The notes under the pieces are model-generated. The model worked only from the letters and a program-made list of their open reading frames with translations. It ran no database searches and was not told the origin of the DNA. A program made the translations under genes and the position numbers. A stretch of DNA of 64,000 nucleotides from Aporrectodea caliginosa (taxonomy: Eukaryota > Annelida > Clitellata > Crassiclitellata > Lumbricidae): positions 3,527,110-3,591,109 of the forward strand of contig JACEVL010000062.1 of assembly GCA_020284085.1 (NCBI GenBank), read 5' to 3'. This document shows positions 10,973 to 64,000 of the stretch, in pieces. Numbering within the stretch: the stretch's first letter is position 1; each line of letters opens with the position of its first letter.

Positions 10973-11739
10973 CGATAATCCGAAGGTTCGATAGTCCGAA
11001 GGCTAGATAGTCCGAAGATCCTATGGTCGTAGCAGTTGGATCGATTAAGCGAATTCTTGCTTAAATAGTAGTTGGACTGATGAAAATATTTTATAGTTTA
11101 AGTGAAAGCTGGATTGATGAAAAAATGTCCTAGTGTAAGTAGAAGTTGGATCGATGCTCAAACTATATGCTACAATAAATGAAACCAGTAAAACCGTATT
11201 TTAGATTGCTAAATTATTTTAATGTCTTCAATGCCGTAGGCTACTTGACGTTGATAAGTAAGCATGCAGTCTACCTATATGTGCATGATGACTATAATCA
11301 ATCCAGCTTCCACTTCATCGAGAAATCTTTTCATCAGTCCAACTTCCATTTAATAAAAAAAATTACTTTTATCAATCCAAATTCTACTTAACGAAAGAAA
11401 TATTTTTCATCAATGGAACTTTTATTTAAGCAAAGAAATTTCTCATGGATCCAGCTTCTACTTACGGAAACAATTATTTTCATCAATCCAACTTCTATTG
11501 AATCGAAAACTTAATTTCATCCATCCAGCTTCTATTTACGGGAAAAATTATTTCGATCAATCCAGCTTCTATTTAAACACAGGAAAGGAATATTTTCCTC
11601 GATCCCACTTCCATTTAGGGAAACAATTTTTTTCATCAATCCAGTTTCCATTTTAAAGTGACACTATAATTTAGCAACGTAAAATACGGTTTAACCATGA
11701 AAACTTCGGACTATCGAACCTTCAGACTATCGATACATG
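10973..11739. mobile_element. Foldback-like element with ~45-bp subrepeats
   Basis: Bounded by TCGATAATCCGAAGGTTCGA (left) and the inverted GGACTATCGAACCTTC...ACTATCGA (right). Inside, a left block (about 11030-11160) repeats AAGTTGGATTGATGAAAA-like units. A longer right block (about 11290-11660) repeats its reverse complement (CATCAATCCAACTTCTA) roughly every 40-50 bp. No coding sequence and no clear target duplication were found. Confidence 0.7.
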
Positions 11740-12098: not shown

Positions 12099-13188
12099 TA
12101 TAATACTGTTATAAAGTAGCCGAATTATAAATAATAGAATGATGTACAGTGATGACGGTGCGAATCGGTTATTTGCGGTTGTTAGATATGAGCGGTCAGA
12201 GGTCACCTGTCAATCAGGCACTGATCATGGTCGCATAGCGCTGCGAACGGAGCGAGAGGGCTGCAGGTGGCCGGCGCCCGTTAAACTGCCGAACAATCGA
12301 TATCGAATAATTATAGCCAGAGATCGATCGGTGAGCTATAGGTTCTAGTGCTGATGCTGGGTCGCCGAACTGATGCACGGCTCTGGAAAGGCCAGGGAGT
12401 CCGGCCACGGACGTTTTTGTCCGCGTTTGGGTCAGCTATCGTGGCGGGGTCGGGGGTGTTCGCGTCTGTTCGCCCGATTGCAGAACGCCGTGAAGACGAA
12501 TTACGGATTTAAAAGGATATAAGTCAGGGTTTTCATTGTCGGAATATTCCGAGCGTTGCTTTGGGTGCGAATCGTAGTCGTTGCAGGCTGCCTCTGTTGA
12601 TCAACATTCATAGTCGCTTCGTACATCGGATAAAGCAGTCCGCTTTGCACTGCCGAGGGAAGTGCAAAGAAAGAAGAAGAGCAGGGGACGGGGAGGACAG
12701 GGAGGAGGGAGATAGGCAGGCAGGCGGGGACGGGGCGCCATTGTTGTGTGTACATTGTCTCTGACAAAGCTGCTTCCATTGTGACATTGTGCTGTGGCTG
12801 GCAGAGCGCATGCGCAGTGTAGTCTCCGAGTGGAGTAGGACTGTGCCCGTCTTCCCGGGCCCCAGTGGATGGGTGAGTCGGCGTTGGCCCAGATGGTTAA
12901 CTGGGCACGTACTTAATTGCATCATGCAGTGGTGTGTAGGGACTAGGGAGGATGTGTGTGTGTCAGAGAAATTCAATGCATTTTCTCAACAACTCAATCT
13001 GATATGAGCACTACAAACAGGAATTACAACAGAGATCGTGAAACTTTCTGAATGTGCAGTATAAGATCTCGGATTTGACTTGATCTTTATGGATTAATAT
13101 TGAAATTTTCACAACATTAAACAGCTCCTGTGACAACTGATTGAAATGTAGGAATTCATTTTACTGTGGAAAGTAAAGACTGGTTTCA
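12099..13188 (+). promoter_or_regulatory. Presumed onecut promoter and 5' UTR region
   Basis: GC-richer than its surroundings and free of TE ends. It lies directly upstream of the onecut ATG. An AATCGATA match to the known ONECUT-type site occurs at 12295-12302 within AATCGATATCGAAT. Transcription start and any 5' UTR intron cannot be placed. Confidence 0.4.
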
Positions 13189-16100
13189 ATGAAAATAAGC
13201 GAGATGAGTGAGAGCGGAGACTGCTTGCAGGATCTGTCATCTGGGGAGTTTGAAGGCGATGAGGAGTACAAGACAACGTACGCCACCCTGACCCCATTAA
13301 GACCCCTCTCGCCTCTCTCCGATTCAGAGAAATACCCTAACAGAGGAGGCTATGGTCAGAATGGCCTTTACAGCATATCGGATACCTCGTTTTCATTTAA
13401 GTATAACAGGGACCTTGACACCGGCCTGAAAGGCTATGAGTTCCTGGAACCACTGCTTCCAATTGCCATGCTCGATGGAAGTGGAAACATGGAATGCTGC
13501 GAAGTCCAGCCGTCGCTGTCTCTTTACCGCCAGGCGTCGCTGCTTCTACCACTGACCAAAGACCTTGACTCTTCCATGAGCAGTGAAGGCATGTACTCGA
13601 GTACCACAGTACCAGGTGTCAGTCCATTTGTGAACGGCAACCAGTCCGGTGGAACGGACAGCATCCAATCTTCCAGGTCTTCGACTCCTGACATCGCTGC
13701 ACATGACTCCTCTGCTAAAAGACCGCTGGCGTCAGTCGTTCCAGCTGTGGCTCCCGCTTCCGATGTGTTCGAGCTGAACGTGGACATGGAGGACGTCGAT
13801 ACGCGCGACATTGCCGAGAAGGTCAGCAACGAGCTGAAGAAGTACAACATTTCACAAGTGCTGTTTGCGCAGACGATTCTCGGTCGCAGCCAGGGCACGC
13901 TCAGTGACCTGCTGCGCAATCCGAAGCCGTGGGCAAAGCTGAAGTCTGGTCGGGAGACGTTCTGTCGAATGTGGAAGTGGCTGCAGGTGCCAGAAATTGA
14001 AAGGATGGCACCTTTCAAAGGGGCAGGTATCTAAGAGAATGGAAATGTCTTATGACGACAATGTTCCATCGTAGGGCCACAAAATTCATTATTGTGGTTG
14101 TTGTTTTTGGTTTCTTCTATTGCATTATTTCAGTTTATGCTTTCCTTGTTTTGTTTTTGGTTTTCTTGGTTTATGGGTGGTGGTTTTGTAGTTTATTTAG
14201 AATGAAAATGAAGTCTTTTATGTTAATTTATGAAACCATGGTTAGTTGGTTACTATGTGAACTAAAAGAAACTGTTCCTTAAAAACATGAGCTGACACGA
14301 GTGCATTATGCTAGCAGGAATGATTGATTGAGTGGTTGATTGATTGTGCTTAAGATCTTCATTTCTGTTTAGCTTAAGCAGATGAAGCAACAAGGAGCAG
14401 GGCTCTTGATTTGAGTGCTGCATTCGATACTGTTGATAATAGTGTTTTGTTGTGCACTTGCTGCACTCGCATTGCTCTGTTGCCAGTTTATCCAACTTCT
14501 CGTCAGTGCATGGGTGGTTCTGCTTCAACAGTTGCTATAAACCTAGATAAGTCTGATGCAATCATTTATGGCTCTCACCAATGACTGTGATCTTTTCCTT
14601 CTCATTCCGTCATTGACCTTTGCTGGCACTGTTGTTTTGCTATCAAAGACTGTCAAAATGCTTGGGGTCACTTTGAACAGTTAACTCACACTACAATCCC
14701 ACATAACAAACCTTTGCAAATCTTGTTTCTATAATATCAGATCATTGCATCACATAAGGTCTGCTCTTGCCAAAGACATGTCACAGACCATAACCTGCTT
14801 CTCTTGTCTGCTCTCACCTGAATTATGCCAGCTCTGTGTTTGAAGGCATATCAGATCTTGAAGTCAACAGGCTTCAGTGCATCCAAAATTCTTTGGCTTG
14901 CATGGTGCTGCATGCATCTTCTCATTCAAACTCCTTAACTCAGCTCAGTCAGCTGTTTTGGGTTTCTGTAGAATTTAGAATAAGATTTAAACTGGCCTGT
15001 CTTTAAAACACTCACAACACGCACTCATATACCTTCACCCAGTACGATCTCCTTACATTCTGCCACACAGTCTGTTAGCTTCTTGTATGGGTTTTTGTCT
15101 GAACCTTGATGTAGTCCTGTCATAGACTCGCGTGCATATGGTGTTGCTGCCGTAAGGAATGGAATTGACGAATGTTTATCTGTTGCTCAAACACCTTTTC
15201 TTCTTTCAAGAAATGCCTCAAAGCTCACTATTTCTCATTGGCCTTCAAACATCTGAACACCTAATTGCTCTTAACCTGGCGACTGACTAACTAACCATGC
15301 CTTAGTTAAAAATGTCCGTAGTAGTAGTAGTGCTAGTGGTGGTGGTTTTGGTGGTAGTAGTAGTAGTAGTAGCAACAAAGCAAATGACTAATTGACTAAA
15401 TAGATCCAATGCTTTTGCTTCTGCTAAATGTTAAGTGCCATTATTTCAAATGAAAGATCATTGATACTTCATTCAACCGAGACTGCTGTCGCTGGCACAA
15501 TTAACAACATGCTTCACTTAACGATTCTCTCTTCTTAAATCTCTGCTGTGTTCGATACCGTTGATCATGGACTCGTGGTATTTGTTGTCTCGACTTGATA
15601 TATAATTGTTCTGCTCTCCTCTGGCAATTTTCTTTTCCTATTCAACCGTGCCTCTGGGTTCAGTCATTCGACCCCTCTTGCAATCTTTATTCCTAATGTT
15701 TATTCATTACTGACTAATGACATAGCTAAACAGTTGCTTGCACAGTTGTGTGTTGTTGATTAGACAATGCAAATGCAGTGTTGTTTGGTATGGTATATCC
15801 TTCGTAATAGATCTGCACAGCCCCAGGTGGTTCAAAAGTCTCTTGTAGGAGTCATTACATGTTCTCGTATTCTCATGCATTGGATCACATTCATGTACTT
15901 CACAGGCTACTTGGTGAATGGCAAATTTAGTTTGTATATCTGACCTTAAAGGCCTAGAAGACAAGCCTACCAATGGGATACCATCATGCCTTAATACGTT
16001 GCTGACTCCGCATAGCTCTTCTGAACTGTTGCATTCTTCTAATACTGGCTTGTTCTTACATAGGTTCAAGACAATTGTAGGATCCAGTGCTTTCATCTGC

Positions 16101-19100
16101 TTTGTGCCTATTGTTTGGACAAAACCGCATCAGAAATACAGTATAAGGTTACTACTCAGTGCTCCTGAGTAGGAACCTTGAAGGGGCGATATATAAATCT
16201 TCGTAATGAATGAATGAATATAAATCTATAAGCGTAAATGAATATACAGGGTGGCCCAATATAAAATGTCCCACCGGATAAAATGCAATTTCTCCGCAAC
16301 CAATTGCGATTTTTATACCAAAATTTCAGCATTTACAGAGGAATGATTTTGCAACAATCCACGAAAATTTCACCTAACAGTGTGCATAGCTTCAAAAGTT
16401 ACAGATGTTTAAATATTCAATTCAATTTTTTCGAATTTCCGCAGATGAGCGGTCCAATAATAGTTATTTCTTTAAGATTTTTTCACAAAGAAATTGTTTT
16501 GTAACACCCAAATAACGGTGCCGTCATATGACCTCATTAAAAGTTGTAAAGAAAGTGTTTATGAAGCAAGCTGTTAATAATTGCAGATATTTTAAAGTAT
16601 ATTAAGTGCGTTTGGTCTGCCGGCAAAAAGGGCGATTTTCAGGACGGTGCGCCTGCTCACACGGCAAGGTTGGCTCAAGGCTTTATTGCCACCAACTGCA
16701 GTGAATTCATTGGCAAAGATGAATGGCCACCAAACTCTCCAGACCTTAATCCTCTTCATTATCATGTCTTGGGAGCTATGCTTGAACGCTACAAGACATT
16801 TCATCCCAAGCCGAAGAACATTGACGAGCTGAAAAAGTCGTGCAGCTAATATGGGACCAGCTGCCGCAGGACTCAATTTACAAGGCCATACTGAGCTTCA
16901 CAAAAAGACTTCGAGCTTGTTGAAAGCTAGGGGTGGACACTTCGAACATGCCTTGAGATAAATTGCTCAACAGATTTCTGATTTCGTAATGAAAGATGAT
17001 TTTATTTGACATTGAAAATTGCAAGTGATTGTCCATTTTTCTTCGGAAATTCGAAAAAATGGAATTTAATATTTAAACAGCTGTAACTTTTGAAGCTATG
17101 CAAATTGTTTAGTGAAATTTTCGTGGATTGTTGAAAAATCATTCCTCTATAGATATTGAAATTTTGGTATAAAAATCTCAATTGGTTGCGGAGAAATTGC
17201 ATTTTATCCGGTGGGACATTTTATATTGGGCCACCCTGTATATGACGCTTTTTTGTAGGACATCATAAGCTATAAATACATTTCAGCACCTTTACAGCAG
17301 ACCAGTGCATTAGGAAGGTTAATTCTTTCTCATTACCACCATTCTCTGATGCTCTGATACATGCCATTAGGCTTATTGTTATGGAGGTCACTGCGGCGTT
17401 GCAGTCTGGAACCTATAGATATTATTGCTGCAAAAGACCCAACTTTCCAATTCACTACCATCATTTGAATACCTAGTGAAGACTCGATGCTTTGCTCTGA
17501 TCGTTGCCTGACTATGACATGTACATTGTACAATCGTACATTTGTGCCTCTGATTCAGACTTATGTGTATTGTGTGTGTAATAAGTGCTTTAAAATAAAT
17601 GACTAATAAATATTGTATGTGAATGCTTTCAAATTTTGTTTTGGAAATTTGACAACCAAATTGACCAGAATGTGAATTCATATCCTCATGCATTTGGTCT
17701 TTGAATGCTTTATATGCAAATTTTTCTTTATCAGTAATGTAACATGAATAAGATGCATTCAATGCGATTCCATTGTTTTAACGATGGCAAAAAGTTTGGT
17801 TGTTTGAACCTTTTGTGGGCCACTAATGCAAAATCGAGTCACCAGAATTTTCAGGAGTGCCCGATAATCTGGTGGTTAGCATGCTCAAATGTCAACATAG
17901 AGGTCAGAGGTTCAAAGCCCTGTCAGCACAGAAAGATTGCTGTTCATTAGCACTTCTAGTGAACTGGGATATAAATGAGTACGTCTACCATACACAGCGG
18001 TTCAAAGGTCAGATTGTGAGGAAGAGGACTGGCTCCCTGCCCTTGTGTGGTAAGGCTCTGAAAAAAGATGCTGGCTCTTGGAGTTATCTTCATGTGTTAT
18101 CTTCAATTCATGTATCAACAAATATAAGAAAACTGATGGTCTCAGTTGCAGCTCTGTGTTTCGGTGCCAAGTGTAAAGGCAGTGATAAACCACAAATGAT
18201 CGTGTCATGTTCTGACTAAGTTAACAGGTTTCGTTTGTTCTTTCTAGGGTTCAAGTCAGAATCTCCGAAAGTCGAACCAATCGTTCTCTCAGTCAAACCC
18301 AAGCCAGAAGGTATTTCGGTTTGTTGGACTGGTTGGTTTTCTTATACAAATTGTAACTAGAAGCTGATATTTATATAGTGCCACTTAAAGAGTAAATTCA
18401 TTGGTGGTGATCCCAACTGGAACCAGAGAAATTGCAGTCGAGTAATACAGACTTTAGCTGCTTGCGAAATTGTGGAAGGGACCAACCTAGGAGCTTTAGC
18501 CGCAGCTCTCTAGGAAAGGCAATTCCAGCTGGTGGGTCCAATATAGGCAAAGTTTCTGGACAGAGCTGTAGCAGTATGTATATTAGGTAGTCAGGAGTCC
18601 GTGGCAGCCGCCTGAAGGGTGTCTTGTCTCAGAAGTCAGAACCGAAGAGACTGAAATGCGGAGGTCCCTAAGGTATGATGGAGCCGAGCAGACGAGACAA
18701 TTTTCCATGAGGGTCAGAATCTTAAACTGAATATGCTCCTGAATGTGGAGCCAGTGCAAAGTGTCCTGCATAAAAAGAAGCTTTTTGGTGAAACCTGGGG
18801 ACACCCCCCCAATAAGACAGGCAGTGGCATTAAGACAGACTGATGCTTCAGAATATCAGCAAGTGAAATCCATTAAAGATAATGTTGCCAAAGTCCACCC
18901 TGGAGCAGATAAGAGCGCATATTAAAGTAATGATGGTGTGAACGAAGAGGGAGCAGCCGATGGTATGGCGCTGATGGAGGTGGTAAAACCATGAGCTCGG
19001 ACACTGTTAACATGATCAGTCAAGGAGAGATTCTGGTCTAGGACAACTACAAGATCACAGACTGTTTAAGTGAAAAGAATGTTCAAAAACCTCTGCGTAG

Positions 19101-26181: not shown

Positions 26182-27984
26182 TCAAATGTAACGAGGTAGT
26201 TGAAGGATACAGCAGGCCCGTCCATGAATTCTAGTGCTCAGCTTATCCATTGTAATGATCTCATCCGTGTCCGTCTTGTACTGGAGTACTTTATCCGAAT
26301 AGTAGTGCTGCCCATTAATTCCACCAACAATGTAGATTCGGTTTTCTAAAACGGCTGCGCCTGCCTCGCGAATGTTAAGCGTTGCCTCGCAGGAAACCCA
26401 CATTCCGGTAACCGGAACGAACATCTCGATGCTTGTCACTGGTACTGGAAATCCATACGAGTCCTCAACATTGCCCCCAACAACGTACAGTCTACCGCTG
26501 ACCTCTGCCATGTTGTGGTTGCTTCGTGGCGTCAGCATCGGCGGTTCATCCCGCCACACATCCGTAACCGGGTCGTACGACATGAAACCCTTGCTGTGTC
26601 CGTCAAACTTCTGCCCGCCCGATACGTAGATGCGCTTATAGCAAAGTGATCCTGAGTGGCCGTAGATGGCGCTAGCAATGTTCGAACACATGACCCACTC
26701 ATTGTTGCTTATGTTGAACTGCTCAACGGTGTACATCACCATGTTCTCATCCTGCCCGGCAATTGCGTATAAAGAGCTGTTAAATGGGACGATGACAAAG
26801 TCCTGTCGCGCTTCATTCATCGCACTCAACTCGAACCACGTGTCAAAGCGCGGATCGTAGCGAAAGCATCGTGCCGTTGCGATGTCGTTGTTCTCGTTGC
26901 TGTCGTATTTTCCGCCACATGCGTACATGAAGTTGTCGACGACACAGACGCAGGGATTATACAACGGAATGGGATTGTCCTTCAGGTAAGTGTGGTGTCC
27001 ACTCTCAAAGTCCAGACATTCGAGGTTCTCATCGTGGCAGATGACGAGACGGTGCTTTTCCGAGCGGACGTGCGTTCGACTCGACTGCAGCAACGGCTGC
27101 TTATTGACAATGATGTGGTAGTCCTTTGCCTCAACAAGCAATTTGAAGCACTCGTCATTTGAAGTCATCATCTCAACTCGGCTGACCTTCTCTACGAGTT
27201 CCTCGCCACTAAGAAGCGGTAGCCGGATATTGCGCATCAGGGCAGCGATGTTTAGTCGTCGTTCAGCCTCATCGAACTCGATCCATTTGAGAACAAGTTC
27301 AAACAGAATGTACTCTGACTGCACACAAAGGGAATTCTCAGAAAGAAGACTTGCAAGCTGAGCACAGCTCAGCTTGAAGAATTCATCGCAATCCGCAATC
27401 ATTTCAAAGTTCTTCAGGATAAACGCACGCACCTTTGCCTGGCTCTTCGTGAGCGAGTAGAGCTCGGTGATGTTCAAAATATCAACACAGTTTTCAACAG
27501 TGACAGCGTGGTCGAGAAACCGGGCACACAACTCGACCGCTTCACTTACCTGAAGATGGGACGCTGCTGCAAGTATCTCTTCCACTGTTTCCAGGTTGAC
27601 CTTGAGCCAGCCCTTATATGCAAAATCGATAACAGCCTGCAGTCCAGTGCCAGTTATCCCCTGAAGCTGTACACTGCTCTCTTTACTCTCCCGCATGTCG
27701 CCCATCAGCATCGCACGGAAATAGTCACTGCATGCCACCATGACAACACGGTGTACATGCAGTTCAAGACCACCAGCAATGAGCGTGTAGTCACATAGGA
27801 GTCCAGACTCTCGTAGATGATCAAGCCCAGATAAGATTTTGCTTGCATATTCGTGTGTTGTGAGAAGTGCAAATGTTGATGCCGAATCCTGAGGAGCGGA
27901 ACAGTGACGCTTGCGCTGGAAAGACAAGTCATCCGTAGTTGTCAGAGTGATTCCCTTCTTTTGCAAAATGGAAGCTTCAGCCAT
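26182..27984 (-). CDS. Kelch-like (KLHL) BTB-BACK-Kelch protein
   Basis: A 600-residue protein whose coding sequence lies in one exon. KLHL proteins typically serve as substrate adaptors of Cullin-3 ubiquitin ligases: the BTB domain dimerises and binds CUL3, the kelch propeller binds substrate. Visible parts: BTB at about residues 52-160 (SGLLCDYTLIAGG, HRVVMVACSDYFRAML), BACK at about 165-265, and five clear kelch repeats from about residue 345 (FMYACGGK, SLYAIAGQ, RIYVSGGQ, RLYVVGG, RIYIVGG), each with a Tyr-Asp/Trp strand. A sixth, degenerate blade may precede them. Length is normal for the family. The ATG is 9 nt after a splice-acceptor-like ATTAATTTAG, so a 5' UTR intron is likely. Similar in style to KLHL9/13/26, but I cannot name the orthologue. 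Confidence 0.93.
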   Translation of the reverse strand: MAEASILQKKGITLTTTDDLSFQRKRHCSAPQDSASTFALLTTHEYASKILSGLDHLRESGLLCDYTLIAGGLELHVHRVVMVACSDYFRAMLMGDMRESKESSVQLQGITGTGLQAVIDFAYKGWLKVNLETVEEILAAASHLQVSEAVELCARFLDHAVTVENCVDILNITELYSLTKSQAKVRAFILKNFEMIADCDEFFKLSCAQLASLLSENSLCVQSEYILFELVLKWIEFDEAERRLNIAALMRNIRLPLLSGEELVEKVSRVEMMTSNDECFKLLVEAKDYHIIVNKQPLLQSSRTHVRSEKHRLVICHDENLECLDFESGHHTYLKDNPIPLYNPCVCVVDNFMYACGGKYDSNENNDIATARCFRYDPRFDTWFELSAMNEARQDFVIVPFNSSLYAIAGQDENMVMYTVEQFNISNNEWVMCSNIASAIYGHSGSLCYKRIYVSGGQKFDGHSKGFMSYDPVTDVWRDEPPMLTPRSNHNMAEVSGRLYVVGGNVEDSYGFPVPVTSIEMFVPVTGMWVSCEATLNIREAGAAVLENRIYIVGGINGQHYYSDKVLQYKTDTDEIITMDKLSTRIHGRACCILQLPRYI

Positions 27985-27992
27985 TACAGCAT
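27984..27992 (-). promoter_or_regulatory. Two-codon uORF overlapping the kelch start codon
   Basis: Directly after the acceptor-like AG, the minus strand reads ATG CTG TAA TG: an upstream ATG with one sense codon after it, whose stop shares its last A with the main ATG. It is relevant only if the exon starts where the acceptor suggests or further upstream. Confidence 0.4.
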
Positions 27993-28369
27993 CTAAATTA
28001 ATACAGAATCAAACAAATACAGCGATTTACATTAGTGGCGAAGAATTGTATTGCACGAACAATCAATGTGCGCCAATTATTTTAGGTTTTCACAACTGCT
28101 TGTTGGTTTATCAGATCCATATTCTTCACATACTTCCAGCTCCAACATTAACTTTGAAATATTAAATTTAAAAATCAAATAAGGTGAAAACTGACTGTTA
28201 GGATCAGCTATTGAACTTTACTTGTCAGTGACTCGAACTTTAACCCTAAATCAGACACTGCAAAGAAAACAAGCCTAACTTTTAACCAAGTCAGTAGTAT
28301 TTGTTAAGCCTAAATATTTTAGCATAGCTTTCTGGTTCAGTACTGTAGGACCCACACGGGGTCAATCCG

Positions 28370-35100: not shown

Positions 35101-37126
35101 GATGGACACAGACAGGCCTTGTTGTGGCCTTTTGAACACCGTAGGGTGTAGGCAAAACAATCTGTTGGAACAGTTGGCCAGGTTTTTGTAAGATCAACAA
35201 TAATTATATCAATAGAAAGAGTAGACCCTAAAGCAGAATTTGACATGGGGTGCGTACGCACCTTACGCACCTTGTATGGCTACGCCACTGGTTATCGGTC
35301 ATCATTCTTAACCCTGGAGTTGATCATAGAGACTTACCAACCCAGCCTGTTATGGAGGCACCATTATTCCAGACAACATACAGAGCTATGGTGCTGTTGG
35401 GGGCAAAGGCATTTGCGACACCGTAGACCTTTGAATGGCTTCTTCCAGCTGAGCCTTTCTGAAGTTCAACAGCAGTCCGATATTCTCCTAAACGAAACAG
35501 TTGACCTTTGCTTTTAAAGACAATATTGATGATGTAGATGTCTGATGTAAAAACAGAACAATTATTATTATTATAACCACATTTTCAATGCAGAAAATTA
35601 ATATGAATCTGAGGCCCAATTAGTCAGTCGTTGGGTGAAGAGCTTATCCAGATGTTTGAAAGCCAATGAGAAATAGTGAGTTTAGAGGCATTTCTTAAAG
35701 GAAGAAAAAGAAATAGAGCATCAGACATATATTGGTGGTCGGTTTCATTCATTACGGGAAGCAATCTGGAATGCACATGAGTCATGAGCCCATGACAGTG
35801 CTACATCGAGGTTCAAACAAAACATCCATACAAGAAGATCACAAACTGTGTGGCAGAATGTAAGGAGACAGCAGTGGGTGAAGGTAGGTAGGAACCCTAG
35901 TTGTGAGTGTTTTAAAAACAGACCAGTTTGAATTTTATTCTGAATTCTACAGTAACCCAATGCAGCTGTCTGAGCCAAGTTAAGGAGTTTGAATGAAAAG
36001 ATGCATGCAGCACCATGCAAATCAAAGAACTTTGGATGCATTGAAGCCTGTTGACTTCAAGATCTGATATGCCTTCAAACACAGAGCTGGCATTATCGAG
36101 GTGAAAGCAGACAAGAGACCAAGCTATGGTCTGTGTTAAACATGTCTTTGGTAAAAGCATATCTTATGTGACGTAATGATCTGATATGATAGAAACAAGA
36201 TTTGCAAAGGTTTATGTGGGATTGGAATGTCAGATTACTGTCCAGAGTGATCCAAATTGTTTTGACAGTGTTTGATACAAGATTAAGGAAGTAAGTACGT
36301 TTAGTTTACTAGGTATGTTTATGGTGAATTTCACTTATTATCGGTAGTCATGAACACCAACAATATTGTATCACTGTTTTCATATATATGTATCGCTGTT
36401 TACTTGCCACAATGTATAGCTAAAGTCATAGCAATGCCCAACTTTCATAAGTATCCCACCTAGCGGATTCATGTGCAATGTCATTATACCCATAATGAAA
36501 GATAGGCAGCAGACTCTGGCTGTACCCAAGACTCAAATAATTACAACCTACAAAGCAATACAACATTATAATGCTTTTATGAGATCAAGAACTGACCAAT
36601 CACAGTTGTGTCCTGATGCCCAGTTATGAACATTTCTGATCCACGGTCGTTGTACCAGTAACCACTCAGAGAACAGACATTACGAGCAGCCACTTAATCA
36701 AACAGCAATCACAAAGAGAAAGCATAAATAATTGATGATAATTCTATGCTGGTTAAACATGTTTTCTACTAGAATCAAAGATTGAATAAAAATATTTCAC
36801 ATAAAGAAAAAACAAAACTTTCAAAGACTAAGAGCAGCCAAGCAATCCATCAATTAAGTCAATCTGTCAAGATAAAAGAAAATCTAAAAATTAATACATG
36901 AAACCTTTTGTAACTTAAAAGTATGGTACATTTTCACGAATCTTCTGTTACTCAGCTGTATGACCGGCACAGTTTGTCACAGTGGAAAATACATTGCAGA
37001 TTTGAAGTTGAGAGACAGAATACAGGAAAGAATAGATTACACAAATTATTATAATCACAAACTCTAATAAATTTTGGTACAGTAAACCTCACCATTAGAA
37101 ACGACATCTCTTTTCCTTCGCCTCAT
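32155..37126 (-). CDS. Avidin-like gene 1, predicted membrane- or GPI-anchored
   Basis: Biotin-binding avidin fold (eight-stranded barrel). Exons on the minus strand: 37093-37126 (tentative), 36597-36692, 35338-35487, 32827-32970 and 32155-32321. All junctions are phase 1 and the total is about 196 residues. Family features: CSLSGYWYNDRGSEM (strand 1), IGEYRTAV (strand 3), VVWNNGASITGWVGQC, TWLLRSKV and ENWKATLYGESTFTR. Predicted biotin contacts kept: Asn and Ser of strand 1, Tyr and Thr of EYRT, Trp70, Ser75, Thr77, Trp97 and Trp110 (chicken avidin numbering). The Asn118 position is Ser. Two extra cysteines (CHVCG; NSCDE) may form a second disulfide. The last exon adds a basic linker, an NGS site and a C-terminal hydrophobic stretch (ILLIMCAAVLSIILNYAA). 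The first exon, MRRRKRDVVSN, holds a furin-like RRKR; a signal-peptide exon upstream was not found. Confidence 0.8.
32590..32760 (-). repeat. SINE-like repeat, copy 2
   Basis: Read on the minus strand it starts with GCCAATTGGTCAGAGCG (box A-like) and has CAGGTTAAGCC (box B-like). It then runs into the segment shared with the copy at 30.9 kb. It lies in the last intron of avidin-like gene 1. Confidence 0.5.
33344..35290. mobile_element. 1.95-kb hAT-like element in an avidin intron
   Basis: Begins CAGTGGCGTAGC and ends GCTACGCCACTG. Both flanks contain GTTATCG, but with four extra bases on the left, so the target duplication is imperfect. GGTGCGT repeats lie just inside both ends. A GC-rich block at 34190-34760 has open frames I cannot identify. 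It contains a stem-loop LINE fragment (about 33940-34020) and AT microsatellites (34800-34920). It ends 47 bp from avidin exon 3. Confidence 0.65.
34795..34920. repeat. TATA-rich microsatellite
   Basis: Interrupted (TA)n and ATATTT runs inside the hAT-like element. Confidence 0.85.
35600..36290 (-). pseudogene. LINE remnant in avidin-like gene 1 intron
   Basis: Minus-strand frames read ASSVFEGISDLEVNRLQCIQ and SNSLTWLRQLHWVTVEFRIK, nearly the same as the plus-strand copy at 14.7-15.0 kb. Lies between avidin exons 2 and 3. Frameshifted and 5'-truncated. Confidence 0.8.
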
Positions 37127-41752: not shown

Positions 41753-44700
41753 ATGGGTATCTTGGAAAGAATTTCGGAGATCGAAAGTGAGGTTGGCATT
41801 TTGTATTATAATTCATAAGATTCAATAATGTTTTCTCGTATAATTTAAAAAGGCTCGGCTACCTTCCACATGTTTCAGTGTAAGAATGCCGACATGCCAA
41901 GTATACACCGTCATAAAGCTCATAGAAAATAAGAAAAATAACGAAAATTAAACAGCGGCGATTCGTGCAGCTGGTGGCGAACGACAAATCAATAATAATG
42001 GCGATTTTTATTATCGGCGAGTCGTATGTTAGAGCTAGAGTTCGTACTGACTGGAGCTGGTTTTAATTTTTCTGACCATATAATTGTGATGTCTGTCAAG
42101 TTGGAGTACACGTTCCTTTTCACTTTCAAGTTCACATTCAAATTGCGGGTGTACACCCCCAGTTAAGGACACGTTTCACGTACAAGAACAACTTGCGAGG
42201 AAAATAGAAAACGCAATAGCGTCTCGTACTACATACACCACTAACGCCACTCCCTCAAACACCCAACACATTTTATTACATTACCTCACCCATCAAACAT
42301 AGAACTTCAATGCATTGTATTGCAATGTAATCCTAATTAACCAAAACAAGTTACCGTCTCCAACGCGTTACAGACAAAAGCCCTTCACACCCCGTACACA
42401 TCACTAACACCCCTCCCCAAAATAACAAACACATTTCCACTACAATGACTAACCTTCTCACTGAAACACATCAAACATCACATGTCAGTGCATTTGTATT
42501 GGGACTTTATTGCAATATATGGCAACTTTGACAACAGAATTGACAGTGTCCGACGCGTTACAGACAAAAGAACTTCACACCACGTACACATCACTAACAC
42601 CCCTCCCCAAAACAACAAACACATTTCCACTACAATGACTAACCGTCTCGCTGCAACACATCAAACATCACATGTCAGTGCATTTGTATTGGTACTCTAT
42701 TGCAATATATGGCAACTTTGACAACAGAATTGACAGTGTCCGACGCGTTACAGACAAAAGCCCTTCACACCACGTACACATCACTAACACCCCTCCCCAA
42801 AACAACAAACACATTTCCACTACAATGACTAACCGTCTCGCAGCAACTCACCAAACATCACACGTCAGTGCATTGGTACTGGCATTCTATTGCAATATAT
42901 GGCAACTTTGACAACAGAATTGACAGTGTCCGACGCGTTACAGACAAAAGCCCTTCACACCACGTACACATCACTAACACCCCTCCCCAAAACAACAAAC
43001 ACATTTCCACTACAATGACTAACCTTCTCGCTGCAACACATCAAACATCACATGTCAGTGCATTTGTACTGGCATTCTATTGCAATATGTGGCAACTTTG
43101 ACAACAGAATTGACAGTGTCCGACGCGTTACAGACAAAAGCCCTTCACACCACGTACACATCACTAACACCCCTCCCCAAAACAACAAACACATTTCCAC
43201 TACAATGACTAACCTTCTCACTGCAACACATCAAACATCACATGTCAGTGCATTTGTACTGGCATTCTATTGCAATATGTTGCAACTTTGACAACAGAAT
43301 TGACAGTGTCCGACGCGTTACAGACAAAAGCCCTTCACACCACGTACACATCACTAACACCCCTCCCCAAAACAACAAACACATTTCCACTACAATGACT
43401 AACCGTCTCGCTGCAACACATCAAACATCACATGTCAGTGCATTTGTACTGGCATTCTATTGCAATATGTTGCAACTTTGACAACAGAATTGACAGTGTC
43501 CGACGCGTTACAGACAAAAGCCCTTCACACCACGTACACATCACTAACACCCCTCCCCAAAACAACAAACACATTTCCACTACAATGACTAACCGTCTCG
43601 CTGCAACACATCAAACATCACATGTCAGTGCATTTGTACTGGCATTCTATTGCAATATGTTGCAACTTTGACAACAGAATTGACAGTGTCCGACGCGTTA
43701 CAGACAAAAGCCCTTCACACCACGTACACATCACTAACACCCCTCCCCAAAACAACAAACACATTTCCACTACAATGACTAACCGTCTCGCTGCAACACA
43801 TCAAACATCACATGTCAGTGCATTTGTACTGGCATTCTATTGCAATATATGGCAACTTTGACAACAGAATTGACAGTGTCCGACGCGTTACAGACAAAAG
43901 CCCTTCACACCACGTACACATCACTAACACCCCTCCCCAAAACAACAAACACATTTCCACTACAATGACTAACCGTCTCGCTGCAACACATCAAACATCA
44001 CATGTCAGTGCATTTGTACTGGCATTCTATTGCAATATATGGCAACTTTGACAACAGAATTGACAGTGTCCGACGCGTTACAGACAAAAGCCCTTCACAC
44101 CACGTACACATCACTAACACCCCTCCCCAAAACAACAAACACATTTCCACTACAATGACTAACCTTCTCGCTGCAACACATCAAACATCACATGTCAGTG
44201 CATTTGTACTGGCATTCTATTGCAATATATGGCAACTTTGACAACAGAATTGACAGTGTCCGACGCGTTACAGACAAAAGAACTTCACACCACGTACACA
44301 TCACTAACACCCCTCCCCAAAACAACAAACACATTTCCACTACAATGACTAACCTTCTCGCTGCAACACATCAAACATCACATGTCAGTGCATTTGTATT
44401 GGGACTTTATTGCAATATATGGCAACTTTGACAACAGAATTGACAGTGTCCGACGCGTTACAGACAAAAGAACTTCACACCACGTACACATCACTAACAC
44501 CCCTCCCCAAAACAACAAACACATTTCCACTACAATGACTAACCTTCTCACTGCAACACACCAAACATCACATGTCAGTGCATTTGTATTGGGACTTTAT
44601 TGCAATATATGGCAACTTTGACAACAGAATTGACAGTGTCCGACGCGTTACAGACAAAAGCCCTTCACACCACGTACACATCACTAACACCCCTCCCCAA

Positions 44701-47700
44701 AACAACAAACACATTTCCACTACAATGACTAACCTTCTCACTGCAACCCACCAAACATCACACGTCAGTGCATTTGTACTGGCATTCTATTGCAATATGT
44801 TGCAACTTTGACAACAGAATTGACAGTGTCCGACGCGTTACAGACAAAAGCCCTTCACACCACGTACACATCACTAACACCCCTCCCCAAAACAACAAAC
44901 ACATTTCCACTACAATGACTAACCGTCTCGCTGCAACACATCAAACATCACATGTCAGTGCATTTGTATTGGGACTTTATTGCAATATATGGCAACTTTG
45001 ACAACAGAATTGACAGTGTCCGACGCGTTACAGACAAAAGCCCTTCACACCACGTACACATCACTAACACCCCTCCCCAAAACAACAAACACATTTCCAC
45101 TACAATGACTAACCTTCTCGCTGCAACACATCAAACATCACATGTCAGTGCATTTGTATTGGTACTCTATTGCAATATATGGCAACTTTGACAACAGAAT
45201 TGACAGTGTCCGACGCGTTACAGACAAAAGCCCTTCACACCACGTACACATCACTAACACCCCTCCCCAAAACAACAAACACATTTCCACTACAATGACT
45301 AACCGTCTCGCTGCAACACATCAAACATCACATGTCAGTGCATTTGTACTGGCATTCTATTGCAATATGTTGCAACTTTGACAACGAAATTGGCAGTGTC
45401 CGACGCGTTACAGACAAAAGCCCTTCACACCACGTACACATCACTAACACCCCTCCCCAAAACAACAAACACATTTCCACTACAATGACTAACCGTCTCG
45501 CTGCAACACATCAAACATCACATGTCAGTGCATTTGTATTGGGACTTTATTGCAATATATGGCAACTTTGACAACAGAATTGACAGTGTCCGACGCGTTA
45601 CAGACAAAAGCCCTTCACACCACGTACACATCACTAACACCCCTCCCCAAAACAACAAACACATTTCCACTACAATGACTAACCGTCTCGCGGCAACTCA
45701 CCAAACATCACACGTCAGTGCATTTGTACTGGCATTCTATTGCAATATGTGGCAACTTTGACAACAGAATTGACAGTGTCCGACGCGTTACAGACAAAAG
45801 CCCTTCACACCACGTACACATCACTAACACCCCTCCCCAAAACAACAAACACATTTCCACTACAATGACTAACCTTCTCGCTGCAACACATCAAACATCA
45901 CATGTCAGTGCATTTGTACTGGCATTCTATTGCAATATATGGCAACTTTGACAACAGAATTGACAGTGTCCGACGCGTTACAGACAAAAGAACTTCACAC
46001 CACGTACACATCACTAACACCCCTCCCCAAAACAACAAACACATTTCCACTACAATGACTAACAACATTCTATTTGAAACAACAAGTGGAAATGTACATT
46101 CAGAGTGCCTCAATAAGAAATCATCCTCTGATTGTACATTTCGATGCCACTGGAAGTGTCATGAAGAAGATGCCGAAGAACAAACAACCATACTACTACT
46201 GTATGATAGGCAACGACAGTGATATACCGTTTCTGGAGTTTATATCTACTGCTCATACTAGTATGTGGCTCGGCACCTTAATTGGTAGCTTTCTGACGCA
46301 TTCGAAGATTTGTGCTCCGAATAAGCAGTTTCGCCCAAAGGTTGTAGTGACGGATTTCTCATATGCCCTAATGTATTCGGTCATGTCAGTCTTCAATGAA
46401 ACTACAATACTTCCGTACATTGCGGACACATTCAGGATGTTGTCGAACACAGAGAGCAAGGTTGCTGGAAAAGCGTTAACGGCTGTAGTAATTTGCGAAG
46501 CCCATATGCTGAAAACGATGTCCGTACGCTTCAATCGCTGTGAGCGGACCGCTGCGAAACGGAAAGCAGCCATGGTAATTTTCGCCCGACTGCAAAGATG
46601 TTCATCTTTACAGGTTATAAATATTGATGTTACCATTTACCTAAATGTTCACAGTAACTGTAAATGTACATACGACCTCGACCCTGCTCAATTTTCAATC
46701 CATTCGTGCATGGCGCCCGCTTCAATGTGCGCATTCCATTAAATGCACAACGGTCAATGCTGTTCTGTGCCCTCATTATAGAAACTGACCATCTGTAGGC
46801 TACTTAATTCACAAGTCATGTTCATTATGGTAATTGTTGCCTCGAAAATTGTTAAAGTAACGCTGCATACTTACGTGTTACAGGAAGCGGCGGATGTGTA
46901 TCGGAAAGCATACATTTTACTGAATTCCGTTACAGCCAGTGATGCAACAGAAACTGCAAAAGCAGCAATTCTTTCAACGGAACCAAGCGATTACGTTGAA
47001 GTGGTACGTAATGATGAATTATCCGTAAACACCTATTCGTTATCGTAATCATAATCTAATCGTAATCTTCTAACTTCTAAACCGCCACTTGAAAGCCAAG
47101 CGCAGCGCACCAGGTTATTTACCAAAGACTTCTTCGTTATACACAGCCAAATGAAGCTGTAATTAGGTGAACTGTACATTTCACAGTAGCTACATGCGGA
47201 TGTACTGAAACACTTCTCATAAGTATAATTACATAGCCTTTTAAAAAATTTGTAGAAAGACAACGATGGTTACGGACGCTACGACGATAGCAGGAAAACA
47301 TCTGCTTTTCTCACAAAGAAGTCTTTGGTGAAAGAATCAATGTTTACTCCCTTCTTTGCAAAGGCGCTGACGGAAGTTCCCGACACCGATTTGGGCAATG
47401 ATGATTCTAAAGGTATACCGAACGAGTTCTACTCTCCACCGTGCTTCAGATGCTTGAAGGAATCAATACACTTATTTCCACTTTGGTCGCGAGCAGTGTA
47501 TTATCTTGCCATTCGGAACACAACACTCGAAGAATCTCCGCCTTCAATGACAAATGCGAAAGTGGAATCATACTTTCGGACGCTAAAAAAAGGCACGCTT
47601 GGAGGAAAGACGAAATTAAGACCAAGAGAATTATTGTGTGAGCAGCTGAAACGAATTAGAGGCGCTCTGAAGGCAAAGATGCTGCCGCAGCCATTCCATA

Positions 47701-50700
47701 TGGGATTCAAGAGACAAAGGAAGACTCTCTTTCTGCGCGATGTAGAAGAGAAATGGAGAGACAAGAAAAGACGGAAGAAGTACTCCGACAAGGAATTCTG
47801 CAAAGAAGTATTAAATAGTCAAAACTCAAAAAGTGACAAAGTCCACGAAAGCACTGAAGCAGTTGTCTCTGAAAACATTGCAAAGGAATCGGCAGAAGGT
47901 TTGTTATATTCAAGTTACTTGAAGTTAGTGAAGTAAGGTTTAGTAGGGGCAGCAGAAGATAATGAATCCCTTATCGATGTCATGAACACAGTTATTTAAT
48001 AATCAATCCTCGGCTAGTCATCGGTTTAATATGCAATTCATCAAGTTTTCTCCAACTTAATCTCATTATAAATAAGCTTTGCTGACCGTTCTGCACTTGT
48101 CTATTGAGTAAACAAGTTATATCAAATGCTATTAATTATTCAATCACAACTGCATACATATATATAGATGAGAATGTTTGTGTTATGGCCATGGACATCG
48201 TTACAGGGTTAAGTATGATAGAAACTTCATTATGAGAAAAAGATATAGTTTCAAATACATTTCATCAGATGTAACTCGATGACATGTCAAAGTCATTAGT
48301 AGTGCCAATTTTTATTTTGAAATTTCAGGAACCATTGAAGAAACAGGTGCTGCAAAATTGAAGAGAAAGAAATGCAGAAACTGAAGAAAGTTCTATGGAT
48401 AGGACCGTGTTGTCAGAAAGGACCTGTACTGGACACCATAGTTATAGCATGAAAATCTGTATATGACACTGAGAGCATGAGTACAACATCGTCTTCAACG
48501 TCATACCTAATGAGAATGTTCAACTATGTAAGTAAGTAAGTAAGTATATCCTTTATTGAAAAACCAACTGCTAACCGCATTTTGGTGTACAAAGATCATC
48601 AAATATAAAAAAAAATTAAGTATAAAGCATCCGTGTGACAAATGTTTTACGAGATAGAGAGTTTGCCTTAGGTATTGTTCGATTGTGGGTTCTGGGGCGT
48701 AGCGAGTATGAAACAGTTTTCACGGGAGGCAGTAGTTGATGTAATACATGTGCAGGGTTGCTGATGATGGTAGAAAAGAAGTTAGAGTCTGCTTTTCTGC
48801 AAAGTTGCTCGAAACTTTGGTAGGATTCCGGTAGATAACGAGACCGGACCAGTCGCCGTATAGTTGCCTGAAGACGAGAGCGTCCCTCTACCCCCACAAA
48901 GCCCCACGCACGCCGGGGCCGCATAGAGCATCCTTGACACTGTGGTAGCATTTGTTACATCACACAGAGATTGGCCCTTTAACCCATGTGCTGTTAGAAC
49001 GCGGAGGGCATACATTGACTGCCTTGCCTTAATGACAATGTTGTTAACATGCGTGTCGAAGTTGAATTGTTCTGACAAAGTGACACCTAGGATCTTCATG
49101 TGCTTTACCCTGGCGAGGCCCGGTGTAACTTTTGGAAGATCAACACCCAACCCTCTCATTGGTCGACGAACTATCATCTCTTGGATCTTAGAATGATTCA
49201 GTTTTAAATTGCAAGAATCAGCCCATTTGGTGACATGATCGATTTCGGACGTTATCAATTCGCTATTTGTTGATGGAATAAGGAGGTAGCTGTCATCCGC
49301 GTACTTTATAATTTTGTTTGTAGAGTGTCGTGTTTTTAGTTTGGATATTGCCACTATAAAGTCAACAGGACCCAGCCCAGATCCTTGTACAATACTGGCG
49401 TTGATTTCGATAGCGCTCGAGGTGACGCCAATAAATTTAGTTCTGTGCTGTCGCTTGTAGAGAAAGGCGATGATCCAGTTATATACGTTATCTGGAATTG
49501 GCAGTTCAGCTAGCTGCTCAGCCAAGTAAGAAAGATGTGTTGGTTGATATGAAGGGCTTTTGTCTGTAACTCGTCGGACACTGCCCATTTTGTTGTCAAA
49601 GTTGCCAAATACTGCAATACAGAATTTTAAAATGTTATCCTGAGGTCCCTCAAAGTCCCCGAACATACCCCATTGATGCTAGAATTCGTGATTTGCATAT
49701 TTATAATGTGTTTTAGAATGTTTGCTTGATCAATATTGCTAATTTGTTTCTCATGAGGTTTGATGCTATCTGAGTGTCCTAACAGCACGTTGATTAACTG
49801 TCACTACAGTTATCTTTGATTAACTGTCACTACAGTTATCTCATTGAGTAATTTCCTTGATATCCTAACGGGGATGACTAGATAAGCTGTTGCAGCTTCT
49901 TCGCCTCGTATTTCGTTTGATTTTTCAGTGTGTTAGTGATGTGTACGTGATGTGAAGGGCTTTTGTCTGTAACGCGTCGGACACTGCCAATTTCGTTGTC
50001 AAAGTTGCAACATATTGCAATAGAATGCCAGTACAAATGCACTGACATGTGATGTTTGATGTGTTGCAGCGAGACGGTTAGTCATTGTAGTGGAAATGTG
50101 TTTGTTGTTTTGGGGAGGGGTGTTAGTGATGTGTACGTGGTGTGAAGGGCTTTTGTCTGTAACGCGTCGGACACTGTCAATTCTGTTGTCAAAGTTGCCA
50201 TATATTGCAATAAAGTCCCAATACAAATGCACTGACATGTGATGTTTGATGTGTTGCAGCGAGAAGGTTAGTCATTGTAGTGGAAATGTGTTTGTTGTTT
50301 TGGGGAGGGGTGTTAGTGATGTGTACGTGGTGTGAAGGGCTTTTGTCTGTAACGCGTCGGACACTGTCAATTCTGTTGTCAAAGTTGCAACATATTGCAA
50401 TAGAATGCCAGTACAAATGCACTGACATGTGATGTTTGATGTGTTGCAGCGAGACGGTTAGTCATTGTAGTGGAAATGTGTTTGTTGTTTTGGGGAGGGG
50501 TGTTAGTGATGTGTACGTGGTGTGAAGGGCTTTTGTCTGTAACGCGTCGGACACTGCCAATTTCGTTGTCAAAGTTGCAACATATTGCAATAGAATGCCA
50601 GTACAAATGCACTGACATGTGATGTTTGATGTGTTGCAGCGAGACGGTTAGTCATTGTAGTGGAAATGTGTTTGTTGTTTTGGGGAGGGGTGTTAGTGAT

Positions 50701-53700
50701 GTGTACGTGGTGTGAAGGGCTTTTGTCTGTAACGCGTCGGACACTGTCAATTCTGTTGTCAAAGTTGCCACATATTGCAATAGAATGCCAGTACAAATGC
50801 ACTGACATGTGATGTTTGATGTGTTGCAGCGAGACGGTTAGTCATTGTAGTGGAAATGTGTTTGTTGTTTTGGGGAGGGGTGTTAGTGATGTGTACGTGG
50901 TGTGAAGGGCTTTTGTCTGTAACGCGTCGGACACTGTCAATTCTGTTGTCAAAGTTGCCACATATTGCAATAGAATGCCAGTACAAATGCACTGACATGT
51001 GATGTTTGATGTGTTGCAGCGAGACGGTTAGTCATTGTAGTGGAAATGTGTTTGTTGTTTTGGGGAGGGGTGTTAGTGATGTGTACGTGGTGTGAAGGGC
51101 TTTTGTCTGTAACGCGTCGGACACTGTCAATTCTGTTGTCAAAGTTGCCACATATTGCAATAGAATGCCAGTACAAATGCACTGACATGTGATGTTTGAT
51201 GTGTTGCAGCGAGACGGTTAGTCATTGTAGTGGAAATGTGTTTGTTGTTTTGGGGAGGGGTGTTAGTGATGTGTACGTGGTGTGAAGGGCTTTTGTCTGT
51301 AACGCGTCGGACACTGTCAATTCTGTTGTCAAAGTTGCAACATATTGCAATAGAATGCCAGTACAAATGCACTGACATGTGATGTTTGATGTGTTGCAGC
51401 GAGACGGTTAGTCATTGTTGGAAATGTGTTTGTTGTTTTGGGGAGGGGTGTTAGTGATGTGTACGTGGTGTGAAGGGCTTTTGTCTGTAACGCGTCGGAC
51501 ACTGTCAATTCTGTTGTCAAAGTTGCAACATATTGCAATAGAATGCCAGTACAAATGCACTGACATGTGATGTTTGATGTGTTGCAGCGAGAAGGTTAGT
51601 CATTGTAGTGGAAATGTGTTTGTTGTTTTGGGGAGGGGTGTTAGTGATGTGTACGTGGTGTGAAGGGCTTTTGTCTGTAACGCGTCGGACACTGTCAATT
51701 CTGTTGTCAAAGTTGCCACATATTGCAATAGAATGCCAGTACAAATGCACTGACATGTGATGTTTGATGTGTTGCAGCGAGAAGGTTAGTCATTGTAGTG
51801 GAAATGTGTTTGTTGTTTTGGGGAGGGGTGTTAGTGATGTGTACGTGGTGTGAAGGGCTTTTGTCTGTAACGCGTCGGACACTGTCAATTCTGTTGTCAA
51901 AGTTGCCATTGTAGTGGAAATGTGTTTGTTGTTTTGGGGAGGGGTGTTAGTGATGTGTACGTGGTGTGAATATATTGCCAATAGAATGCCAGTACCAATG
52001 CACTGACGTGTGATGTTTGGTGAGTTGCAGCGAGACGGTTAGTCATTGTAGTGGAAATGTGTTTGTTGTTTTGGGGAGGGGTGTTAGTGATGTGTACGTG
52101 GTGTGAAGGGCTTTTGTCTGTAACGCGTCGGACACTGTCAATTCTGTTGTCAAAGTTGCCATATATTGCAATAGAGTACCAATACAAATGCACTGACATG
52201 TGATGTTTGATGTGTTGCAGCGAGACGGTTAGTCATTGTAGTGGAAATGTGTTTGTTGTTTTGGGGAGGGGTGTTAGTGATGTGTACGTGGTGTGAAGTT
52301 CTTTTGTCTGTAACGCGTCGGACACTGTCAATTCTGTTGTCAAAGTTGCCATATATTGCAATAAAGTCCCAATACAAATGCACTGACATGTGATGTTTGA
52401 TGTGTTTCAGTGAGAAGGTTAGTCATTGTAGTGGAAATGTGTTTGTTATTTTGGGGAGGGGTGTTAGTGATGTGTACGGGGTGTGAAGGGCTTTTGTCTG
52501 TAACGCGTTGGAGACGGTAACTTGTTTTGGTTAATTAGGATTACATTGCAATACAATGCATTGAAGTTCTATGTTTGATGGGTGAGGTAATGTAATAAAA
52601 TGTGTTGGGTGTTTGAGGGAGTGGCGTTAGTGGTGTATGTAGTACGAGACGCTATTGCGTTTTCTATTTTCCTCGCAAGTTGTTCTTGTACGTGAAACGT
52701 GTCCTTAACTGGGGGTGTACACCCGCAATTTGAATGTGAACTTGAAAGTGAAAAGGAACGTGTACTCCAACTTGACAGACATATAATTGTGACGAGCTGT
52801 AAGTGTAGAAAAGTAACTTTGGATTCTTTTGAATTAAGAAGGTGCCAAAATACGAAGTCTTGTGGTTCTGAGAAATATTGTGGGATACAGAATTGTCCAG
52901 ACGAAAGAGCGCTGTCTTTTTCAACGCAGTCAAAACTTAAGATTTGTGGGAGAGATGGAGCAGTAGCTTCAGCATCCAACAATAGATATCATACTGGAAC
53001 CACCTTATAACATGTATTTTTATAATTTGTATTTTGATTTAAAACAGTTGTAGACTTGGATCGCAAATTTGGTAAAAGTTTACGGTGGCTCGGTGTCAAC
53101 AACCACTTAGATAAACAATACGGCAACCCCCAAAATTATATAAATTAGAGTGCTGACCTACAGCAGTCTACTACTTCCATGAAAGTAAGTAAGTAAGACA
53201 ACGCCACATTGTACACACAAAACGTTGAGACGTGCGCTAAACGAAAGCTGAAGACACAATTCTGAACAAGCTGCGAGTTGTTCAACACATACCTGCAGGA
53301 ATTTATGTTACAATCTGTCTTCCAACACGAGAACCTGTTATAACATGGATCTTAACGATTCCCAGAGGCAACGTTTTAAGGAGCTTCCAGTGTATGTTCT
53401 GACTGTTTTGCATCCGTTGCAAAAATAATGTGGCAACATCAAAAGAAGGACCAGATTTAGAATATCCATAACAGTAATGAAAGGTTGATTATATATAACA
53501 ATGCAGGCGGTCACCACAATATGCTATGAAATATAAACCCAAAAGTTGTGAAGTGCTGGATAAATGACTTAGGCATAGAATTAAATTAGAAAATTACGGT
53601 TCTGAACTTTAGATGGCAAGAACGCAAAAGAACAAAGCGACGATGGGTCACTTGGGTTTGCTAAAGGCCCGGCTTGCTAAGCTACGACGTGAACTGATCG

Positions 53701-62415: not shown

Positions 62416-63021
62416 TTATTTCTTGACTTGCATTGTCTCTGGCTTAACAATACCAACCATAATGTTGTAATAAAGTGGACTTTTAAAGTCTTTTAGTGGC
62501 AGATAGTATAGGTTCTGTTTTATTCTGAAGTTTCCTTTCATTTCTCGAAAGAGTGAATTCTGCTCCACAAGTTCGACATTCTCTGGGCCAAACGACACCC
62601 TGTTCTTCGTCATGAGCCACGTGTACTCTATGCCTGTAAACCTGTTTGCTGTTGGAAGGTAGTAGATGCGGAAGAGTGTCCTCTTGACTAGCTGTCTTGT
62701 AGGGTAGAGAAGAGCCAGCCCAAAGGCCAAGCCCAGCGTTGCAAAGATCACAGGGTGTTCGGGGCTGATTTCGGCAGGGAGTTCCCCGTTGTAAAACTGG
62801 TGGTAGGCGTATGCTGTAGTCAAGGTCATGTAAGCAGCACACAGGCAGAGGCCGACATATGTTCCCTGAAGGTACCACTTATTGTTATTTGTAAAGATGA
62901 GCTGTGCATCAGGTCCTAAACCATCCGTCTTTGGATTGGGCTCTTGTTTCTTCCAGAGCCTCAAAGCCAGCCCTCTTGAGTTAGGTGGACTCGATTTGCA
63001 GACTGCGCTTGTGGGAAATTT
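62416..63021 (-). CDS. Two-pass membrane protein resembling TMEM223, last exon
   Basis: The exon starts after acceptor TTAATCATTTCAG and encodes 201 residues to the stop. An in-frame TAA just upstream means an earlier exon must supply the ATG; it was not found in 63022-64000. Layout: polar N-terminal part (LIFTNNNKWYLQG), helix 1 (YVGLCLCAAYMTLTTAYAY), helix 2 (VIFATLGLAFGLALLY), then a soluble beta-rich C-terminal domain (NRFTGIEYTW; MKGNFRIKQNLYYLPLKDFK; SPLYYNIMVG). The order of a short domain, two helices and a beta-rich tail with a 'LPLK...Y.L' segment is that of mitochondrial inner-membrane TMEM223. TMEM186 is the alternative. The name is tentative; that it is a real gene is much surer. 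Confidence 0.7.
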   Translation of the reverse strand, partial: KFPTSAVCKSSPPNSRGLALRLWKKQEPNPKTDGLGPDAQLIFTNNNKWYLQGTYVGLCLCAAYMTLTTAYAYHQFYNGELPAEISPEHPVIFATLGLAFGLALLYPTRQLVKRTLFRIYYLPTANRFTGIEYTWLMTKNRVSFGPENVELVEQNSLFREMKGNFRIKQNLYYLPLKDFKSPLYYNIMVGIVKPETMQVKK

Positions 63022-64000
63022 CTGAAATGATTAAAATCAGATAATAAATTTAGTACTGGGGGTCACCAAAATCAATAGGCATTTTTCTTTTATTGAAATG
63101 CAAACTTTACTATCTTTCTGGTTTGTCACCTGGCCGTCTCACGGTTGAAGATGGAGTGATCATAGGTTAGGCACAAATCAGTGTGTAAAATACATGCCAT
63201 TTTATGTTAAACAAGTATTCTTCCAAGGTCATGCAGGAGGTTGAAAGAGGCACTGTACCAGGCTGCTGCAAGAGCTGAAAGTACAAATGGATGGAACAGA
63301 TAAAACTCGCACGTTACAAGTACTAACGGTCGACCAAAACTGTCTTTCATATCTTAATCCACAGTCAAGACATATTAGGATAGCCATTTTATGTTAAACA
63401 AGCTTAACCCTTTCATTGGGAGCATGTACTAAAATGTATGTGAAGCCCATGCAGCTTGTTGTTAAATGCTTAAACAATTGTGACATAAAAATTGTACCAA
63501 AGCAAAGTATATGAAACTTATAAAACAGAATGTATTCAGATGTTTCTAGATTACCGTGAACGAGTGCACAGAAATGGCAAGTGCACAAGACTTCCTGGCA
63601 GCAATTAGACAAAACATGGCGAGTCTGTTGTTTACAGCCACTAGGACCAAGAAATCGTTGACAGAACAGTTGCAGATGAACTAAACTTTGCTGGTACTGA
63701 GGATTTGATTGCAAATTGCTCTTTATTGAACCTAAACAAGTAATTTCATACAAAACAAAGTCAACACATAAACATGCTACTGCTAAATAATATATGTGTC
63801 CCCTGTGTGACTCCATTTTCTCATTGATTGTGTACTACTGTTGTTTGTTTGTTCACCAAATAAATGATTTGAATTTGATTTGATATACTTTGGCTGCTTT
63901 TCTGTATTTTTGTCAATCATCTACTTTGTGGTCTTGTGTCTCGTCCTAACTAACTTTGCTACATTACTGCGGCTCATAACCGTCGATCATGGGTCCCATA
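63022..64000. other. Upstream of the membrane protein gene; no exon placed
   Basis: Should contain an intron and perhaps the first exon of the minus-strand gene. Seen here: the third 70-bp TTAA palindrome (63404-63473) and an ATTTGAATTTGATTTGA run (63868-63882) like a plus-strand LINE tail. A 140-codon minus-strand frame at 63394-63816 shows no recognisable domain. Confidence 0.4.
63404..63473. mobile_element. 70-bp TTAA-type palindromic MITE, copy 3
   Basis: TTAACCCTTTCATTGGGAGC at the left, GCAGCTTGTTGTTAAATGC then TTAA at the right. Aligns over its length with the reverse complement of 4240-4310, including GAGCATGTACTAAAAT. Confidence 0.6.

Follow-up and report, generated by a model that had tools for sequence, protein, structure and literature searches.

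The DNA analysed here, a window of 64,000 nucleotides from contig JACEVL010000062.1 of Aporrectodea caliginosa (assembly GCA_020284085.1), carries a foldback element of 10,694 bp at positions 42089-52782. The two ends are inverted copies of each other. Counted inwards from 42089 and 52782, the first 753 nt match perfectly and the first mismatch falls at position 754; an inverted-repeat search reports 804 nt at 100%, which is a rounded value. A perfect 9-bp duplication, ATAATTGTG, stands directly before the element (42080-42088) and directly after it (52783-52791). If each end is drawn one base shorter, the duplication becomes 11 bp long, TATAATTGTGA. In a chance control, 200,000 pairs of positions were drawn at random from the window, and 9 of them shared a 9-mer in that arrangement. 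With its long inverted arms of tandem repeats and its flanking target duplication, the element belongs to the foldback structural class. No second copy was found by blastn within the 64-kb window.

Each arm begins with a non-tandem end of 270 bp (42089-42358 on the + strand and 52513-52782 on the - strand, each a perfect inverted match to the other) and continues as an array of a 190-bp unit, the two arrays lying in opposite orientations. According to Tandem Repeats Finder the left array (42359-46063, +) holds 19.5 copies with 97% matches and has 20 unit starts. The right array (49930-52512, -) has 14 unit starts and comes in two pieces, 49930-51908 with 10.4 copies and 51970-52512 with 2.9 copies, separated by a rearranged stretch at about 51909-51969. 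A first-pass annotation of this DNA had reported the perfect 9-bp duplication, the exact inverted termini and the oppositely oriented arms of a 190-bp repeat, and all three stand. It had also put the arms at 3-4 kb, which agrees with the left one (about 3.98 kb) and slightly overstates the right one (about 2.85 kb).

When units are numbered from the outside, R01 is identical to L01, R02 to L02 and R04 to L04. R03 is nearest to L03, with 18 differences and a rearranged end. Deeper in the arms this order is lost: the variant L16 is seen twice on the right, at R10 and at R13, and L06/L07 has its counterpart in R11. In this comparison the within-right mean was taken from R01-R13 and the left one from L01-L19. 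The ordered match of the outer units, together with the shuffled inner variants, implies that the arms were copied from each other or from one source and were probably rearranged inside later. The outer order fits copying from arm to arm, possibly by conversion. One might object that a tandem array was wrongly joined to its own inverse, since large near-identical inverted arrays are difficult to assemble. Yet the flanks are unique and each bears its copy of the perfect 9-bp duplication, the two arms are unequal in their number of unit starts (20 against 14), their inner variants follow a different order, and the window contains no Ns; we thus consider an assembly artefact very improbable.

The repeat unit itself may have a local origin. 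A segment of the left outer end, 42214-42335 (hereafter 'unit zero'), resembles the array unit: its local alignment score is 39, and none of 300 shuffles exceeded 28. Under another scoring it reached 45, compared with 18 for the reverse complement and a maximum of 31 among 500 shuffles. This alignment suggests that the 190-bp unit grew out of a subterminal stretch, an origin likewise proposed for the units of Tetris (PMC4079207). Special conservation, among units, of the segment shared with 'unit zero' found no support: 30 of 190 windows along the unit were equally low in a variability count that excluded L20, R03, R06 and R14 (4 of 34 units), which are partial or carry indels.

Between the arms lies a gene, which the first-pass annotation had described as a central spliced frame with transposase motifs. 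The frame and the motifs DATG, DFSY, CEAH and VESYF were recovered, in four predicted exons on the + strand. Exon 1 (46059-46613), truncated at its 5' side at the array junction, contains the first three motifs and is 78.8% identical over 184 aa to residues 279-462 of P0001, the closest relative. Exon 2 (46884-47003) has gt-ag borders, and residues 349-380 of P0011 match 46878-46973 (E 0.003). Exon 3 (47256-47898), backed also by alignment A3, carries NAKVESYF, a candidate for the catalytic E, and is 70% identical to P0021 over 213 aa (tblastn). Exon 4 (48329-48384), a short basic tail leading to the stop, is a weak prediction from a gt-ag border and the open frame, and no relative covering it was found. 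Joined across gt-ag introns, the exons give 457 residues with 0 internal stops, whereas 2,000 mononucleotide shuffles had 12 at the minimum and 28.3 on average. The motifs fall at D29, D99, C146/H149 and E329, in the same order as in P0011, P0012 and P0015. At the level of motifs, the predicted protein thus has the layout of Mutator-like transposases, a DDE triad with CxxH between the second D and the E.

Protein searches returned 6 relatives when the entire predicted protein was the query, 19 for alignment A1 (5 of them shared) and 5 for exon 3, making 25 proteins in total (P0001-P0025). These relatives show what the gene has lost. P0001, 78% identical to exon 1, begins 278 residues earlier, and the part missing here contains, in P0001, P0002, P0011 and P0012, a C-x4-C followed by a later H. 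When the 25 relatives were compared with the window and with the element by tblastn, no N-terminal part matched better than E 0.8. Weak matches of P0007 and P0012 to array units (E 0.8-4.9) were taken as chance. The left array ends at 46063 and the similarity to P0001 begins at 46065. A complete transposase gene, the mark of an autonomous transposon, is absent from this copy. Because nothing in the window corresponds to some 278 residues at the N-terminus of the closest relative, the gene is best read as truncated and the copy as non-autonomous, probably depending on another copy for its movement.

The first-pass annotation had instead proposed an autonomous or recently autonomous copy, a claim that the missing N-terminal residues argue against. 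The idea could be kept by placing the N-terminus in an unrecognised exon of an FB-NOF-like element that is, or was until recently, active, or by supposing that the truncated protein suffices. The remaining 457 codons are indeed open, the splice sites are plausible, and D, D, C..H and E are retained. But the tblastn searches point the other way, and at the left junction the array passes straight into coding sequence. We regard an autonomous or just-active element as improbable.

The first-pass annotation had called the element a foldback MULE (Mutator-like element) and named a profile search as the check. The foldback transposon and the Mutator-like order of DDE and CxxH stand, and in a structural comparison with the model of one relative the IS256-family transposase ISCth4, whose RNase H fold carries a helical insertion, reached the highest Z, with modest scores. 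The profile search had a different outcome: the window protein has no MULE match in Pfam at E up to 1, and in 23 of the 25 relatives plus two window exons, scanned at E up to 10, MULE appeared in 0 of 25 sequences. Pfam also failed to find a PHD finger in the window protein (E up to 1). Among the 23 scanned relatives, most of which are partial, a PHD match was seen in one, at the C-terminus of P0015 (E 0.0015, below the Pfam cut-off), and that C-terminal part has no significant tblastn match in the element. In P0011 and P0015 the stretch after the catalytic part looks by eye like what we presume to be a C48/Ulp1-type protease, which Pfam does not confirm. Two further Pfam rows were set aside: zf-RING_12, which matched 5 of the 25 sequences (lowest E 3.3e-4, under the cut-off) and lay over the N-terminal zinc region where it could be positioned, was left unassigned, and a GFO/IDH/MocA row in 2 of 25 members is weak and was not taken as an assignment.

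The model of P0012 has a pLDDT (predicted local distance difference test) of 70.5, and its N-terminal region matches WRKY domains and AFT2. In Foldseek against solved structures the top rows were WRKY domains (E 0.08-0.10) and the rest were mixed folds. A sequence search of solved structures with alignment A1 gave none at E up to 1. The model of P0015 (pLDDT 51) was dropped. The best match in a library of viral structures, a bracovirus protein of unknown function (E 1.9e-3, template modelling score 0.19), was not used. Scans of viral contigs with P0002, P0011 and P0015 and of genome contigs with P0003 found no confirmed relative.

Taken together, we think it likely that the element is a cut-and-paste Rehavkus/Mutator-like DNA transposon with foldback arms, whose truncated gene leaves it non-autonomous and moved in trans. 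A different account would make it a passive foldback element that captured an unrelated transposase fragment in the fashion of Pack-MULEs, in which case the gene would tell us nothing about how the arms move. That the gene is a fragment whose start was not found in the window suits this account. Yet the 9-bp duplication and the DDE/CxxH transposase occur together in Rehavkus and Mutator-type elements (PMC6446971, PMC3169594), and their agreement here would have to be accidental, so that capture appears unlikely to us.

Between the gene and the right arm lies a 5'-truncated long interspersed element (LINE; 48528-49537, -), with an RVT_1 match of E 4.4e-11 on the open reading frame (ORF) 48782-49678. 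Its tail of GTAA repeats covers 48528-48546 (by eye) and its reverse-transcriptase part about 49085-49537; no clear target duplication was seen around it by eye. It adjoins what looks like a single decayed array unit, oriented as in the right arm (49534-49625, -), which aligns to the unit with a local score of 116. The decayed unit next to the truncated LINE suggests that there was older array sequence on the right side.

Elsewhere in the window, 26182-28008 (-) encodes a BTB-BACK-Kelch protein of 608 aa in a single open frame. The ORF 13177-14034 (+) has a CUT domain (E 3.2e-32) and is, we assume, a Onecut-type gene. CUT is an animal domain, and these two neighbours of the element agree with an animal host. 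A third ORF (62416-63030, -) matches TMEM70/186/223 weakly, at E 0.0017, below the Pfam cut-off. Three repeats were also noted: a palindromic stretch at 10988-11733, its ends resembling TCGATAGTCCGAAG and its interior containing 37-bp repeats, which may be a small foldback element or a miniature inverted-repeat transposable element; an interspersed repeat in two inverse copies (14641-15255 and 35649-36277) whose pieces are 80-91% complementary; and inverted arms of 204 nt (16242-16445 and 17040-17243), 93% complementary and spaced by 594 nt.

If the element is a Rehavkus/Mutator-like transposon moved in trans, its history might have run as follows. It was inserted as one unit with a short duplication, the cut being staggered by 9 bp (or 11 bp). 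A full-length transposase from other copies might recognise subterminal sites, with its N-terminal WRKY-like zinc domain making the contact. On this view the 190-bp unit would be a multiplied subterminal stretch and the arrays might offer many binding sites, for which Galileo provides a precedent (PMC3688188). The arms would have grown by tandem duplication and then been copied from one to the other, perhaps by conversion. Growth of the left array into the gene would have replaced the first 278 codons or so, and with the array in their place the copy would be non-autonomous and might be mobilised in trans by a full-length relative.

One intact insertion shows how foldback arms can stay mirror images during growth, with outer units ordered and identical and inner ones rearranged, and suggests that this growth may disable the gene between the arms. 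The 25 relatives, 23 of them scanned, form a transposase group that the Pfam MULE model does not recognise, and such elements may therefore be missed in animal genomes. One might speculate, and we do so tentatively, that there is an animal clade of foldback transposons of the Rehavkus/Mutator-like kind, as yet undescribed and missed by this model, in which inward array growth and arm-to-arm copying consume the transposase gene, so that copies once autonomous become dependents rich in arm sequence and seeds of satellites.

Among the papers listed in the literature searches, a scope that excludes supplements and most subscription journals, we recognised no published description of this element. 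Foldback arms enclosing a large gene, as here, are found in FB-NOF of Drosophila, whose repeat units are much shorter than 190 bp; the title of Badal et al. 2013 calls FB-NOF non-autonomous. Galileo, of the P superfamily, has a THAP-domain P-type transposase (PMC3688188), unlike the DDE/CxxH Mutator-like layout found here. Closer in its arms is Tetris/DAIBAM of Drosophila, with tandem units of about 220 bp, a 37-bp stretch common to these units and the outer arm, and duplications of 8-10 bp; it differs in that no transposase gene was found in it (PMC4079207).

The combination of foldback arms with a Mutator-type transposase outside insects, put forward by the first-pass annotation as possibly new, is already published. 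Tm1 of root-knot nematodes has composite foldback arms with tandem repeats varying in number, 9-bp duplications and a Mutator-type transposase with an N-terminal zinc domain, and many of its copies lack the gene (PMC3169594). Its unit is only 13-15 bp and its gene-bearing copy 2.5 kb, and its transposase matches Pfam MULE and FLYWCH whereas the window protein does not (PMC3169594). Rehavkus, listed for Arthropoda and Annelida (PMC6446971), is the closest published description, a match by description and not to a named Rehavkus transposase sequence. It differs in its inverted repeats, which at 26-400 bp are only a fraction of the length of these arms, with a minisatellite before the 3' repeat (PMC6446971), and in its smaller arrays, mostly of five and eight monomers against 20 and 14 unit starts; moreover, the gene is truncated here. 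A PHD finger is listed for Rehavkus; this copy yielded none, and the relative P0015 ends in a weak PHD-like one. The likenesses are these: the duplication is of 9 bp (PMC6446971; here 9 or 11 bp by choice of ends), and Rehavkus-1_TC of Tribolium has one ORF, a length of 9.5 kb against some 10 kb (PMC10218199, PMC6446971), and a satellite-sized unit in its inverted termini, of 164 bp there and 190 bp here (PMC10218199).
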